From positions 213,990 to 277,989 of the forward strand of contig NZ_VWSH01000001.1 of the NCBI RefSeq assembly GCF_008629695.1: a DNA stretch of 64,000 nucleotides, written 5' to 3'. A program made the translations under genes and the position numbers. The notes under the pieces were generated by a model. It was not told the origin of the DNA and did no database searches. It worked only from the letters and a program-made list of their open reading frames with translations. Shown here in pieces: positions 11,662-48,331 of the stretch. This DNA is from Taibaiella lutea. GTDB taxonomy: Bacteria > Bacteroidota > Bacteroidia > Chitinophagales > Chitinophagaceae. Numbering within the stretch: position 1 is the stretch's first letter; each line of letters opens with the position of its first letter.

Positions 11662-13143
11662 ATGACTCCATCCCAACAAAACATTAATACATCTAATACA
11701 GACGCGGTTACAGCCTGGGAGAAATGTCTTGGTATCATCAAGGACAATGTAAATTGGCGGGCATTTCAAACATGGTTTGAGCCTATAAAGGCTGCGGCTC
11801 TTGTAAATGGCGTTTTAACGATACAAGTACCGAGTCAGTTCTTTTATGAGTGGCTTGAAGAACACTATGTAGAATTATTGGGTAAAACGATTAAAAGAGT
11901 TTTAGGACGCGAAGGCCGCTTGGAATACCGCATCCAAATGGAAGCAAACGCACAGCAACGTCAGCAACAACCTGCTACAATGCAGTTGCCCGGCAGTGCA
12001 CACCCTAAGGCTCCTAAAGATAATAATTATGTGAATCTGGACTATGTAATGGAAGATCCATTAAAGATCAAAAATCCATTCATTATTCCGGGAATGAAAC
12101 GGGTACAGATTGATCCCCAGTTAAATCCTAATTCTACCTTTGATAATTATATTGAAGGCGAATGTAACAGATTGGCAAGAACTGCCGGTGTGCATATTGC
12201 TCAAAAACCCGGTGCTACTGCATTTAATCCATTAATGATCTTTGGAGGAACAGGCTGTGGAAAAACACATTTATTGCAGGCAATAGGTAATGAAGTACGC
12301 AGGCTTCATCCTAATAAATCCGTTTTATACGTAAGTACAGAGAAATTCATCAATCAGTTTATTGATCATTCAAAAAATCAGGAAGTCAATGATTTTATTC
12401 ATTTCTATCAATTGATTGATGTGTTGTTGTTGGATGATATTCATTTGTTTGTTAGTGCAACAAAAACACAGGATGTATTCTTTGCAATCTTTAATCACTT
12501 GCATCAGAATGGCAAGCAAATTGTATTGACAAGCGATACGCCCCCTAAGGATTTGGAAGGCATGCAGGAACGTCTTTTAAGCCGTTTCAGATGGGGATTA
12601 CACGCCGAAATCCAATCACCTGATTATGACACACGCAAAGCCATTCTGGAAATGAAAATGCGCAATGAAGGATTGGAAATTCCGGAAGAAGTGGTGCAAT
12701 ATGTAGCATACAATGTTCAAAACAATGTGCGCGATTTGGAAGGAACCGTTATCTCGCTTTTTGCACAGGCAACTTTGAATAAAAAAGAGATTGACCTCGA
12801 ACTGGCAAAACGTGTGTTGAAGAATTTTGTAAAATCTTCTTTCAAGGAATTGAGTATTGAAGATATTCAAAAGATGGTATGCAATTTCTACAACGTTACT
12901 TACAATGATCTGCTGTCTAAAACACGTAAACGCGAAATAGTACAAGCTCGTCAGATCACAATGTATCTTGCAAAAAAATTCACAAGAAACTCATTAAAGT
13001 CAATAGGAGAACACTTTACAGGTAAAGATCACACAACGGTTATTCACTCTTGTCAGACTGTTGAAAACCTTATGGATACTGATTCTGCCTACAAAGAGAA
13101 GTTGCTGGAAATTCAACAAAAAGTACAGCTGGCGGCTATGTAA
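11662..13143 (+). CDS. dnaA: Chromosomal replication initiator DnaA
   Basis: The 493-residue protein has every DnaA domain. Domain I comes first (WEKCLGIIKDNVNWRAFQTWFEPI), then a Gln-rich linker (about residues 95-115). The AAA+ domain has Walker A GGTGCGKTH (about 195-203) and Walker B LLLDDIH (about 255-262). Domain IV carries the DNA-binding signature GKDHTTVIHSCQTV. It melts the origin and loads the replicative helicase. The 269-base upstream region holds a small dyad (TCAACA-aaa-TGTTGA near 11405), but I see no cluster of TTATCCACA boxes, so I do not claim an origin here. A 20-bp hairpin follows the gene. Confidence 0.97.
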   Translation: MTPSQQNINTSNTDAVTAWEKCLGIIKDNVNWRAFQTWFEPIKAAALVNGVLTIQVPSQFFYEWLEEHYVELLGKTIKRVLGREGRLEYRIQMEANAQQRQQQPATMQLPGSAHPKAPKDNNYVNLDYVMEDPLKIKNPFIIPGMKRVQIDPQLNPNSTFDNYIEGECNRLARTAGVHIAQKPGATAFNPLMIFGGTGCGKTHLLQAIGNEVRRLHPNKSVLYVSTEKFINQFIDHSKNQEVNDFIHFYQLIDVLLLDDIHLFVSATKTQDVFFAIFNHLHQNGKQIVLTSDTPPKDLEGMQERLLSRFRWGLHAEIQSPDYDTRKAILEMKMRNEGLEIPEEVVQYVAYNVQNNVRDLEGTVISLFAQATLNKKEIDLELAKRVLKNFVKSSFKELSIEDIQKMVCNFYNVTYNDLLSKTRKREIVQARQITMYLAKKFTRNSLKSIGEHFTGKDHTTVIHSCQTVENLMDTDSAYKEKLLEIQQKVQLAAM

Positions 13144-43233: not shown

Positions 43234-43566
43234 CTACCCTTTTCTGCTGATAAGCTCCTTCAGTAAATCATTTTCCCATTGCAGCTTTTTAATCTGCTCT
43301 GCCTGTTCGGCCAGCAGTTTATCTTGTGGCGTATCAGCAGCAGAGGCATAATCTGTCGGCAATCTTAGCGCTATGTCCTTAAAAAAATTGTAACGCAAAC
43401 CGTGGCATAATTTCAAAAGGCTGTGCACGTGCAGGGAACTCCTTTTTTCATATGCATAGACGGCCGTTTCAGACAATCCCATTTGAATACCCAGTTGTGT
43501 GCGTTTTACACGCAATGCTTCGATACGATGACTTAACATGCTGCCAATATGCACTTTTGTTTCCAT
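43234..43566 (-). CDS. XRE-like helix-turn-helix protein with C-terminal coiled coil
   Basis: The 110-residue protein has an N-terminal HTH (about residues 8-50: GSMLSHRIEALRVKRTQLGIQMGLSETAVYAYEKRSSLHVHSLLKL). The recognition-helix region is LSETAVYAYEKR. A C-terminal heptad-like helix (KLLAEQAEQIKKLQWENDLLKELI) could form a dimer. It is a small regulator of unknown target. Its gene starts 78 bases from the first copy of the 41-bp repeat array, on the opposite side from the plus-strand GldM_C genes, so the array lies in the shared divergent control region. Confidence 0.85.
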   Translation of the reverse strand: METKVHIGSMLSHRIEALRVKRTQLGIQMGLSETAVYAYEKRSSLHVHSLLKLCHGLRYNFFKDIALRLPTDYASAADTPQDKLLAEQAEQIKKLQWENDLLKELISRKG

Positions 43567-43643
43567 AATGATAATTTTATTGAAAATTTATACAATCAAT
43601 AAAATGATTACTGCAAAAAGTATGCCAAAACATATGTTTTGAG

Positions 43644-43956
43644 GAAAAAAATTAATCGGGACTATAAAATTCTTATTGAAAATCAGAAAAAATTAACTCC
43701 AACAACAAGTTGCTTATGGAGGGACGGAAAATATTAACCTGTACGATAAGCCGCTTATGTAGGGATAGAAAAAATTAACCACGACGATAAACTGCTTATG
43801 TGGGGGCGGAAAATGTTAACTTGAACGATAAGCCTCTTATGGAAGGATAGAAAAAATTAACCACAACGAGAAGCTGCTTATGGAGGGATTGAAAAAATTA
43901 ACTTTAACGATAAGTTTCTTATAGAAATACAGAAAAAATTATCGAAATCTATAATC
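43644..43956. repeat. Tandem array of 41-bp units, intergenic
   Basis: Six complete units of exactly 41 bp lie at 43686-43726, 43727-43767, 43768-43808, 43809-43849, 43850-43890 and 43891-43931, with degenerate copies on both flanks (43644 and 43932 onward). In all six, GAAAA, TTAAC and CTTAT are invariant. The approximate consensus is GAAAAAATTAAC, then a variable AACG part, then an imperfect dyad ATAAG-nnn-CTTAT, then GGAGGGATA. There are no spacers, so it is not CRISPR. The length is not a multiple of three and stops occur, so it is not coding. The rest of 43567-44042 has no gene. Confidence 0.9.
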
Positions 43957-44042
43957 AGGCTCATGTCTTAAGCCAGCAAGCAATGATATTAGCATGCTTT
44001 CATGAAATTTTATTAAATTCGTAAAGCTATAAATACGTGATT

Positions 44043-44680
44043 ATGAAAATCTTATTGCTGCTGCTATTTTCATTATACCTGCCTATTTCAATGTCCGGGC
44101 AAAATGTTGTGGTGGCTAACGACGGAATGAATGTGGCTTACGCGGGCGTTCCCAACCCTATAACTATCGCAGTTGAAAACTACAAAGCCGAACAGGTTAT
44201 TGTTTCAACCGATAACGGAACACTGGTAAACAATGGTGATGGGAACTATTATTACACACCTCTAAAAGCGGGGGAAGCCATTATAAAGCTTGAAGTAAAA
44301 ACTAAGAATGGCAACAGGGAAATCGGACAAACGGGTTATAGGATTAAAGAAGCGCCGGCTCCTACTGCAAGTATTGGAAGGGAAACGGGCGGGCAAATTA
44401 GTAGAGCAAAATTAATACCTCAATTAGGTATCCTAGCCACTATGCAGAATCTTGACATTGAAATGAGTTCAAAGTTTCAAAATTTAAAGTAACGATTATT
44501 AGGAATGGCTCAATTAAATTCACTAAAGACAACATAGGTAATCGATTTAACGATGATATAAAGAGTGCATTTCAGTCGCTTATGGCCGGAGACCTTGTTT
44601 TATTTGAAAATATATTTTGCTCCGCGCCTGATAAAAAGGAGCGGGCTTTAGAATCTATTGAATTTACCATAATTCCATAA
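44043..44680 (+). pseudogene. GldM C-terminal-domain protein, interrupted by a frameshift
   Basis: The first frame (ATG at 44043, stop 44490-44492) encodes a signal peptide and a GldM_C domain (MNVAYAGVPNPITIAV, YYYTPLKAGEAIIKLEV). It ends early at MSSKFQNLK. The -1 frame continues the domain without a break (KFKVTIIRNGSIKF, FQSLMAGDLVLFENIFCSAPDKKE, IEFTIIP) to a stop at 44678-44680. Adding one base to the A run at 44461-44463 restores an alignment with the intact neighbour at 44690, residue for residue. A -1 slippery heptamer A-AAT-TTA at 44480-44486 precedes the stop. The cause may be mutation, programmed frameshift or sequencing error. Confidence 0.75.
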
Positions 44681-44689
44681 TTTGAAATC

Positions 44690-45325
44690 ATGAAAATACC
44701 TTTTTTCGTTTTTTTGATATTATTATCTGCAAACTTGTTTGCTCAATCCTTTGTCATTTCAGCCGATAAGATGAACATCGCATACATAGGTATTGACAAT
44801 CCGCTAAGCATCGTTTCAGATAATTGCAGTTGCAAAGATTTATTTGCCACAACAGATAATGGAACGCTTATAAAAAAAGATAGTTGTCATTTCTTGTATG
44901 AGCCCTCGCAAGCTGAAAAAGCAACTATCATCATTCAAAAGAAACAAAACGGGAAGCTTGTTAAGATTGGAGAACAAGTACTGAGATGTAAACGTATTCC
45001 TGATCCATATCCGGTTGTTGGCAATAGGCATAGTGGATCTTTTCCGTTGGCTCAATTTAAAGTGCAGCAAGGAGTAGTCATGACATTTGGCGAATCATTT
45101 GATTTAGACTTCAAAGCAATAGTTATATCTTTTAAAATAACGCTATTAAGTAATAATCAGGTTTTCCATACTCAGGAAACAAACGGCAATCGTTTCACTT
45201 CCAATACCATAGTTGCTTTTAGCCAACTAAAAACTGGCGACATAGTAGCAATCGAAGGTATAAAATGTATCAGAAGCGGCGGTTGTCCTAAAGGAGCAGG
45301 AACTTTAACTTTTGTTATGCGCTAA
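44690..45325 (+). CDS. Secreted GldM C-terminal-domain protein
   Basis: The 211-residue protein has a signal peptide (MKIPFFVFLILLSANLFAQ) and a complete GldM C-terminal domain: FVISADKMNIAYIGIDNPLSIV, CHFLYEPSQAEKATIIIQKK, the diagnostic LRCKRIPDPYPVVGNRHSGSFPLAQFKVQQGVV and a final FDLDFKAIVISFKITLL region. GldM is the large periplasmic stalk of the type IX secretion motor. This protein has no membrane helix or stalk, only the terminal domain that contacts the outer-membrane ring. It is an adjacent paralogue of the broken gene 10 bases upstream. The function as a free domain is unknown. Confidence 0.85.
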   Translation: MKIPFFVFLILLSANLFAQSFVISADKMNIAYIGIDNPLSIVSDNCSCKDLFATTDNGTLIKKDSCHFLYEPSQAEKATIIIQKKQNGKLVKIGEQVLRCKRIPDPYPVVGNRHSGSFPLAQFKVQQGVVMTFGESFDLDFKAIVISFKITLLSNNQVFHTQETNGNRFTSNTIVAFSQLKTGDIVAIEGIKCIRSGGCPKGAGTLTFVMR

Positions 45326-47695: not shown

Positions 47696-48331
47696 ATGGC
47701 TCTTACAGAACATTATTACACACAATTTGAAGCAGGTAAATTCTATCATGTTTATAATCGTACGGTAGATCTCAAACCCATGTTCAGAACTAATTCAAAT
47801 TATATCTTCTTTCTAAAGAAATACAATGAATATCTTTCTGACGTAGTTGACACGTATGCTTATTGTCTTTTGGGAAATCACTTTCATCTGGCAATTAAGA
47901 TAAAAAGCCAGGAAGAACTTGACATATTTCAATCAACAAGGGATTATAAGAATATTCCGGACAATCATGAAATAGTGAGCCATCAGTTTCGTAAGTTCTT
48001 CCAATCTTACTCTATGGCATTTAATAAATCATTTGAAAGGGTCGGAACACTTTTTCAAACACCATTTAAAAGAGCGTTAATAGATAATCCTGTTTACCTG
48101 AAAAGGTTGATCTATTATATTCATTATAACCCGCAGCACCATAATCTTGTTGATGATTTTCGGGATTGGGAATGGAGTTCCTTTGAAAGATTTCTGATAG
48201 AGCGACCAAGTAAATTGAAAAAAGAAGATGTTTTTAATTGTTTTGATGGCAGGAATGGTTTCCTTGAATATCATGATTTGAAACATTCTGATAATTTTCC
48301 GGAGCCTGTTTTTATTGATGATATTTATTGA
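47696..48331 (+). CDS. REP-associated tyrosine transposase (Y1/IS200-like, RAYT)
   Basis: The 211-residue protein has the Y1 transposase fold: GKFYHVYNRTVDLKPMF, then the HUH motif NHFHLAIK, then a helix with SFERVGTLFQTPFKRALIDNPVYLKRLIYYIHYNPQHHNL, which contains the catalytic-Tyr region. A C-terminal tail follows (WEWSSFERFLIERPSKLKKEDVF). HUH enzymes cut and join single-stranded DNA, and RAYTs recognise REP hairpins. The gene is intact and lies inside the hairpin pair described for the whole unit. It starts about 90 bases after the upstream hairpin. Confidence 0.92.
   Translation: MALTEHYYTQFEAGKFYHVYNRTVDLKPMFRTNSNYIFFLKKYNEYLSDVVDTYAYCLLGNHFHLAIKIKSQEELDIFQSTRDYKNIPDNHEIVSHQFRKFFQSYSMAFNKSFERVGTLFQTPFKRALIDNPVYLKRLIYYIHYNPQHHNLVDDFRDWEWSSFERFLIERPSKLKKEDVFNCFDGRNGFLEYHDLKHSDNFPEPVFIDDIY

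Follow-up and report, generated by a model that had tools for sequence, protein, structure and literature searches.

A phased 41-bp repeat array beside a small XRE-type regulator gene in Taibaiella lutea as a candidate cooperative operator array

Introduction

In Taibaiella lutea, a run of 41-bp tandem repeats lies beside the gene for a small XRE-type regulator, which raises the question of what protein reads these repeats. They were studied in a 64,000-nt window (GCF_008629695.1, NZ_VWSH01000001.1, positions 213,990 to 277,989), to which all coordinates without a prefix refer. A preliminary description, made from the sequence alone, had placed them between the regulator gene and genes for GldM-type proteins transcribed away from them, an arrangement that was confirmed (regulator on the minus strand, GldM-domain genes on the plus strand), and had considered an operator array, a centromere-like site or a nucleoid-anchor site. 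The reading favoured here, with a probability of about 0.6, is that the repeats (array W) serve as a cooperative operator array for the neighbouring gene's own product, an XRE/coiled-coil protein, with a second site in trans.

Structure and conservation of the array

Array W (43643..43941, plus strand), as delimited by Tandem Repeats Finder (TRF), a listing of units, alignment and covariance-model matches, consists of seven 41-bp units and a 12-base partial copy. The units start at 43643, 43684, 43725, 43766, 43807, 43848 and 43889; the first (43643-43683) is decayed, the six clean units span 43684-43929, and the partial copy runs to 43941, the arrays in general decaying towards their ends. 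The majority consensus of the unit over array W and a second array, B, is CAGAAAAAATTAACTACGACGATAAGCTGCTTATGGAGGGA. TRF reported a period of 41 with 6.3 copies, 72% matches, 0% indels and a score of 243, which bears out the earlier statement that six units stand in perfect register. Treated as an 82-bp double unit, the array scored 318. In 246-bp stretches, periods 41 and 82 gave match fractions of 0.70 and 0.74, compared with at most 0.42 elsewhere in the window or at periods that are not multiples of 41. Such an 82-bp pattern suggests growth of the array by unit pairs.

The motifs GAAAA, TTAAC and CTTAT, previously singled out as invariant, are indeed present in all six clean units. The dyad ATAAG-nnn-CTTAT, which had been assigned to every unit, is exact in three of them (43725, 43807 and 43889), whereas the other three keep CTTAT alone and have ACAAG, ATAAA or AGAAG as the left arm. 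Covariation in the dyad columns did not exceed chance (its score was reached by 270 of 500 shuffles), and array W folded as RNA no better than shuffles (z 0.66). Conservation across the columns of the unit is uneven: over the 16 units of arrays W and B, with 89 inferred changes, 14 of the 41 columns are unchanged against 4.6 expected, a number reached in none of 20,000 simulations, and the 12 core units have 17 unchanged columns against 12.0 expected (p 0.013). The spread of changes over columns is likewise uneven (variance p 0.003 for 16 units and 0.022 for the 12 core units).

The adjacent regulator and its genomic setting

The gene facing away from array W on the minus strand (43234..43566), whose start codon lies 76 bp from the array, encodes a protein of 110 aa, identified from its ORF, an AlphaFold (AF2) model and a profile as a small XRE/Cro-CI-type regulator with a long C-terminal helix. 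The model (mean pLDDT 85.9, pTM 0.57) combines an HTH-like bundle of helices with one long helix at residues 80-109. A profile of 17 homologues matched the chain DBP48 (E 3.3e-5) and SinR (E 6.5e-5) and, more weakly, P22 C2 and HipB, while a Foldseek search of the PDB with the model gave a best E of 6e-3, with C.Esp1396I and HipB as top structures, C.BclI also among them and none at 0.001. The AF2 model, the SinR profile match and the weak Foldseek matches place the predicted protein in the Cro/CI HTH fold, and its sequence and model suggest a coiled coil. A Pfam scan of the protein by itself returned no match, so no ParB domain was found. The linker between array and start codon (43567..43642, minus strand), where the XRE promoter would be expected, contains no TAnnTTTG box.

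On the other side of the array lie a gene for a GldM third-domain protein (44037..44492, plus strand) and a second gene for a protein with GldM third and fourth domains (44690..45325, plus strand). The frame of the first is probably interrupted, two stops being located inside the homologous stretch. In the interval 44037-44680, GldM homology resumes in another frame past the stop at 44492. Seven local proteins scanned with Pfam comprised DapD, the two GldM-domain proteins, MscS, a response regulator and two without a match, namely the XRE protein and a REP-transposase-like ORF; among these seven, no ParA-type ATPase, HipA kinase or restriction gene was detected. The REP-associated transposase-like ORF (47696-48331) scored 45.7 bits against a cut-off of 80. 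About 30 kb from array W lies an ORF (11662-13143) that we take, from its sequence, to be dnaA-like.

In two congeners, only about 107 bp (G001) and 130 bp (G002) lie between the dapD and GldM-type matches, where neither an XRE match nor a TRF array was detected. In T. lutea, the dapD stop and position 44043 are 942 bp apart, and the XRE gene and the array fill this interval. The short interval in the congeners would fit a cassette made up of the XRE gene and its array; a third congener (G003) has no GldM-type match beside dapD. Three XRE paralogues were detected in the T. lutea genome, the two further ones on contigs 4 and 2, and all three have an array directly upstream, with units of 41, 21 and 22 bp that are mutually unrelated in sequence.

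Periodic arrays upstream of homologous regulators

Homologues of the XRE protein were collected from 147 genomes of the family (E 1e-5) and 396 genomes of the order (E 1e-6), yielding 21 and 57 matches, nine of them shared, and thus 69 distinct ones. Two short fragments in G022 (C85 and C28) and an unlocated match in G333 were left out, and 66 homologues in 33 genomes remained. For each, self-similarity in the 500 bp upstream and the 500 bp downstream was compared with dinucleotide shuffles (60 for homologues), and an array was called at z of at least 5 with no shuffle as high, a criterion fixed after the first results had been seen; the downstream side was measurable in 62 homologues. A periodic array was found upstream of 40 of the 66 homologues and downstream of 2 of the 62 (Fisher p 3e-13), and 17 of the 33 genomes have at least one upstream array. 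The combination of an XRE gene with an upstream periodic array hence recurs in other genomes. All 16 homologues scoring at least 80 bits have it (10 of these built the profile and 6 did not), and the 26 array-negative homologues all score below 80 bits. Outside the profile-building set, the counts are 30/55 upstream and 1/52 downstream. One genus (g125, nine genomes) supplies 33 of the 66 homologues, with arrays upstream in 23/33 and downstream in 0/30; outside it, the proportions are 17/33 and 2/32. Random-gene controls, run with slightly different settings (40 shuffles and a score pre-filter), gave 4/120 in T. lutea, 8/120 in G366, 4/120 in G095 and 6/120 in G003.

The periods are confined to few values, with 38 of the 40 upstream arrays peaking at 21, 22, 42, 43, 63, 82, 84 or 105 bp, close to multiples of two helical turns, and the remaining two at 16 and 57 bp. 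The G092 array is weak (z 5.5). Among the arrays written out in full, up to about 20 units occur. Searches of plasmids and phages with the XRE and P1 proteins (the latter described below) by tblastn returned no match. One group of these regulators (A5) was found at four loci in genome contigs, all in MAGs titled Bacteroidetes or Chitinophaga, and at none in viral contigs.

At 13 of the 66 loci, one of two recurrent, apparently helical proteins is encoded on the upstream side. P1 (about 165 aa) occurs at six loci, in all of which the order is gene, array and XRE on one strand, and P2/P2b (about 310-340 aa) at seven, five of them with an array by the criterion used; members lie at L059:568-1071 and L058:2444-2944 and in G292, G366, G369, G383 and G397. 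No Pfam family was found in the three members scanned, and the structure prediction for P1 is of low confidence (pLDDT 63). A TAnnTTTG box lies between -90 and -8 in 11 of 38 array-positive upstream regions (2.4 in shuffles), several of the 11 being close relatives, and in ten of them at -33 to -24; the difference from the other homologues (4/28) is not significant (p 0.13). Some arrays end some tens of bases before the start codon, a placement that would suit an activator or switch, and others reach within 20 bp of it, which would suit autorepression.

Correspondence between array motif and HTH sequence

When the arrays are folded at 21 bp, their core differs for each regulator group. In 31 of 38 arrays, those with a period of 21 and sufficient information, core similarity tracks HTH identity (r 0.68, permutation p 0.0005), averaging 0.66 in 21 pairs whose recognition segments are at least 0.6 identical versus 0.27 in 425 pairs below 0.35. 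An exception is G372d, which shares 0.61-0.67 of its recognition segment with G366d and G369c at a motif similarity of 0.05-0.06; G366a and G369f also differ in motif. In the pairs G366f/G369e and G366d/G369c, the units stand at matching distances from the start codon, and the arrays of each pair look orthologous. Between the members of these two pairs, core columns are 0.84-0.93 identical versus 0.52-0.59 for the filler (3 to 6 columns), while the 100-bp linkers are 0.72 and 0.85 and the whole arrays 0.74 and 0.78 identical. Judged from these alignments, shared ancestry accounts for part of the correlation between motif and HTH, and the higher conservation of core than of filler points to selection. 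The link between array and regulator, which had been put forward as a conjecture for array W, is thus supported by comparison, through the upstream bias among homologues (40/66 versus 2/62) and a motif that follows the HTH.

A second array and the distribution of the 41-bp unit

About 37 kb downstream of array W, array B comprises nine copies of the same unit on the same strand (C1:294534-294902, corresponding to L004:8535-8903), with a decayed stretch from 294493. It begins just after an outer-membrane-type gene, named from its sequence, and at the other end the final unit leads into a terminator-like hairpin. The two arrays are 80% identical over 296 bp, and their alignment is best when collinear (0.805 over six units at offset 0, compared with 0.752 and 0.760 at two other six-unit offsets), which suggests that they derive from one block duplication. 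The preliminary description had proposed counting copies of the unit across genomes and had held that the same array at many unrelated loci lacking the regulator would speak against the link. A covariance-model search of the whole genome retrieved 16 units, all within arrays W and B and on one strand, so that array B is the one such locus. A search of 243 other genomes of the family, a sample of a larger group to which strict filters were applied, did not find the unit in any of them. No blastn match was obtained in 58 relatives or in plasmids and phages, and one exact unit pattern was absent from collections of genome contigs and viral contigs that may themselves omit the T. lutea genome.

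Proposed mechanism and comparison with known systems

In the favoured model, the XRE/coiled-coil protein would occupy a row of sites in the array beside its gene, its HTH recognising a short core of every unit. With units about two or four helical turns apart, all bound dimers would face the same side of the DNA and could assemble cooperatively. The bound array would then control how strongly the regulator's own gene is expressed, and perhaps also the GldM-domain genes transcribed the other way; array B would offer this protein a second site. Binding, dimer formation, cooperativity, the sign of regulation and action at array B are what we infer in this model. The arrangement points to an apparently undescribed means of lining up many regulator sites along one DNA face, and a search of open-licence full-text literature turned up no account of XRE genes preceded by 21-bp phased arrays.

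The closest parallels are hipBA operators and restriction-modification C proteins, in which a small Cro/CI-fold protein likewise has repeated sites upstream of its own gene. Those systems have few operators; in contrast, array W has seven units and the arrays written out up to about 20, a second array lies elsewhere, and the seven neighbours scanned include neither a HipA kinase, the partner that would mark a hipBA toxin-antitoxin locus beside the HTH gene, nor a restriction gene. Repeated sites directly upstream, the hallmark of an XRE regulator with tandem operators, are present here and in 40 of the 66 homologues. REP/RAYT elements, whose palindromes are dispersed through the genome, were rejected despite the REP-transposase-like ORF, since the 16 units form two tandem arrays on one strand. 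Of the hallmarks of ParABS, an adjacent ParA is missing among the seven proteins and a ParB_N domain was not found by Pfam in the DNA-binding protein; tandem repeats are present, with a dyad exact in three of the six clean units. In Omega/parS of pSM19035 (PMC9499535), rows of short sites overlapping promoters are bound by a partition protein that also controls expression, the protein being of the RHH type, with 7-10 contiguous 7-bp repeats and a ParA partner; here, the fold is XRE, the spacing 21 or 41 bp, and ParA absent from the proteins scanned. F-plasmid sopC (parS F; PMC6238139) is built of twelve tandem copies of a 43-bp repeat and contains ten inverted repeats of 16 bp. The tandem repeats are alike, but the dyad here is exact in three of six clean units, and sopC is read by ParB on a plasmid, whereas the XRE protein is without a ParB domain by Pfam.

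A wider and rather doubtful proposal, though one worth stating, is that Bacteroidota possess a genome-wide addressing system in which many small XRE proteins each have a private phased-array motif at their own gene and some also at distant sites, often with an unknown partner across the array, so as to gather or silence chosen loci. The favoured operator-array reading, if right, would itself amount to a recurrent regulatory architecture with diversified regulator-array pairs whose sequences reveal their specificity. It would open helical phasing, cooperativity and the way DNA recognition evolves to direct tests, and such pairs might be used as orthogonal sets of regulators and operators.

Arrays without the regulator and alternative explanations

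The 21-bp spacing extends beyond the XRE loci. In noncoding sequence of T. lutea (800 kb) and G366 (391 kb), self-similarity identified 12 segments each at lag 21, whereas lags 20 and 22 gave no segment. Excluded from this comparison is a run taken to be masked bases, which in the full T. lutea scan had added a steady single count to the majority of lags under 75. Over lags 12-129, T. lutea has peaks at 21, 42, 63, 84, 105 and 126 and at 41, 82 and 123; in G366, lags above 67 were sampled at five values only. G095 (395 kb) has a single such array, located at its XRE gene, and the congener G003, which has no XRE match, gives a less clear picture, with three segments at lag 21, three at 14 and others scattered. 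One clear 21-bp array was seen within 400 kb of G003 (G003:C21:73980-74076). An XRE of this family adjoins 1 of 17 array loci in T. lutea (800 kb), 4 of 13 in G366, the single locus in G095 and none of the four in G003; the loci counted include short and weak ones. Most arrays in the sampled T. lutea sequence lack an adjoining XRE of this family, so not every array needs the gene beside it.

An unlikely but serious alternative is a nucleoid-organising or centromere-like site, at which the XRE protein or a partner would cluster or bridge arrays W and B, with expression control secondary. It would accommodate the four array families found at two sites each in the examined T. lutea sequence (W-B, 80%; C4-A404, 71%; A372-A503, 77%; A484-A544, 80% over 90 bp), the position of the XRE-less sites A404 and A503 between convergent genes, and the resemblance to the F-plasmid parS repeats noted above (PMC6238139). 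For the centromere-like site of the preliminary description, however, nothing was found in favour: no ParA occurs among the seven local proteins, the single ParB_N (PF02195) match of the genome lies 538 kb away (C1:795519), and no site within two mismatches of the parS consensus exists in the 400 kb scanned. Moreover, arrays lie upstream but not downstream of the homologues, which favours a promoter role. A reading of the locus as replication origin or parS was rejected, given that cumulative GC skew over the 400 kb read reaches its minimum at C1:433 kb and not at dnaA, and that the closest parS-like sites have three mismatches.

That an unrelated host protein preferring 21-bp phasing reads the arrays, with the XRE gene merely a frequent neighbour, is improbable. 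It would explain the array loci without an XRE of this family (16 of 17 in T. lutea and 9 of 13 in G366) and the occurrence of arrays upstream of a different HTH type, HTH_26-like, at one T. lutea locus and two adjoining G366 loci. A single protein should, however, give a single motif, whereas unit sequences change between arrays in line with the HTH of the protein encoded alongside. Still less probable is a neutral minisatellite whose register is maintained by unequal exchange: decay at the array ends and apparent growth by unit pairs would be expected of it, but column changes are uneven in both unit sets (p 0.003 and 0.022), 21 bp and its multiples recur over unrelated sequences, and core exceeds filler in conservation in the two related pairs. 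A structured RNA or a coding repeat is hardly credible, for although array B, taken together with its flank, outperforms shuffles in folding (z -5.0), 21 is divisible by 3 and some 21-bp arrays contain ORFs, the fold of array B includes the terminator-like hairpin, array W neither folds better than shuffles nor covaries in its dyad, RNase P is the only Rfam match in the window, and 22-, 41- and 43-bp units break the reading frame. A second helix (columns 14-17 with 35-38) beat shuffles of its 3' letters, which reached its pairing in 0/500 and its covariation in 7/500 cases, and it pairs at 73.6% in place versus 51-53% in slid controls; it was set aside because the controls slid by +1 and +2 covary at 0.159 and 0.184 compared with 0.153 in place.

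Beyond the cooperative operator array proposed for array W, the HTH_26-like proteins (about 115 aa) with 21-bp arrays upstream are encoded at C1:428347-428700 and at about G366:C2:97107-97463. Further 21-bp phased intergenic arrays without a detected XRE of this family beside them are located at C1:372292, 403841, 484217, 503577, 544145, 638034, 775243 and 806438, and several of them form sequence-related pairs.
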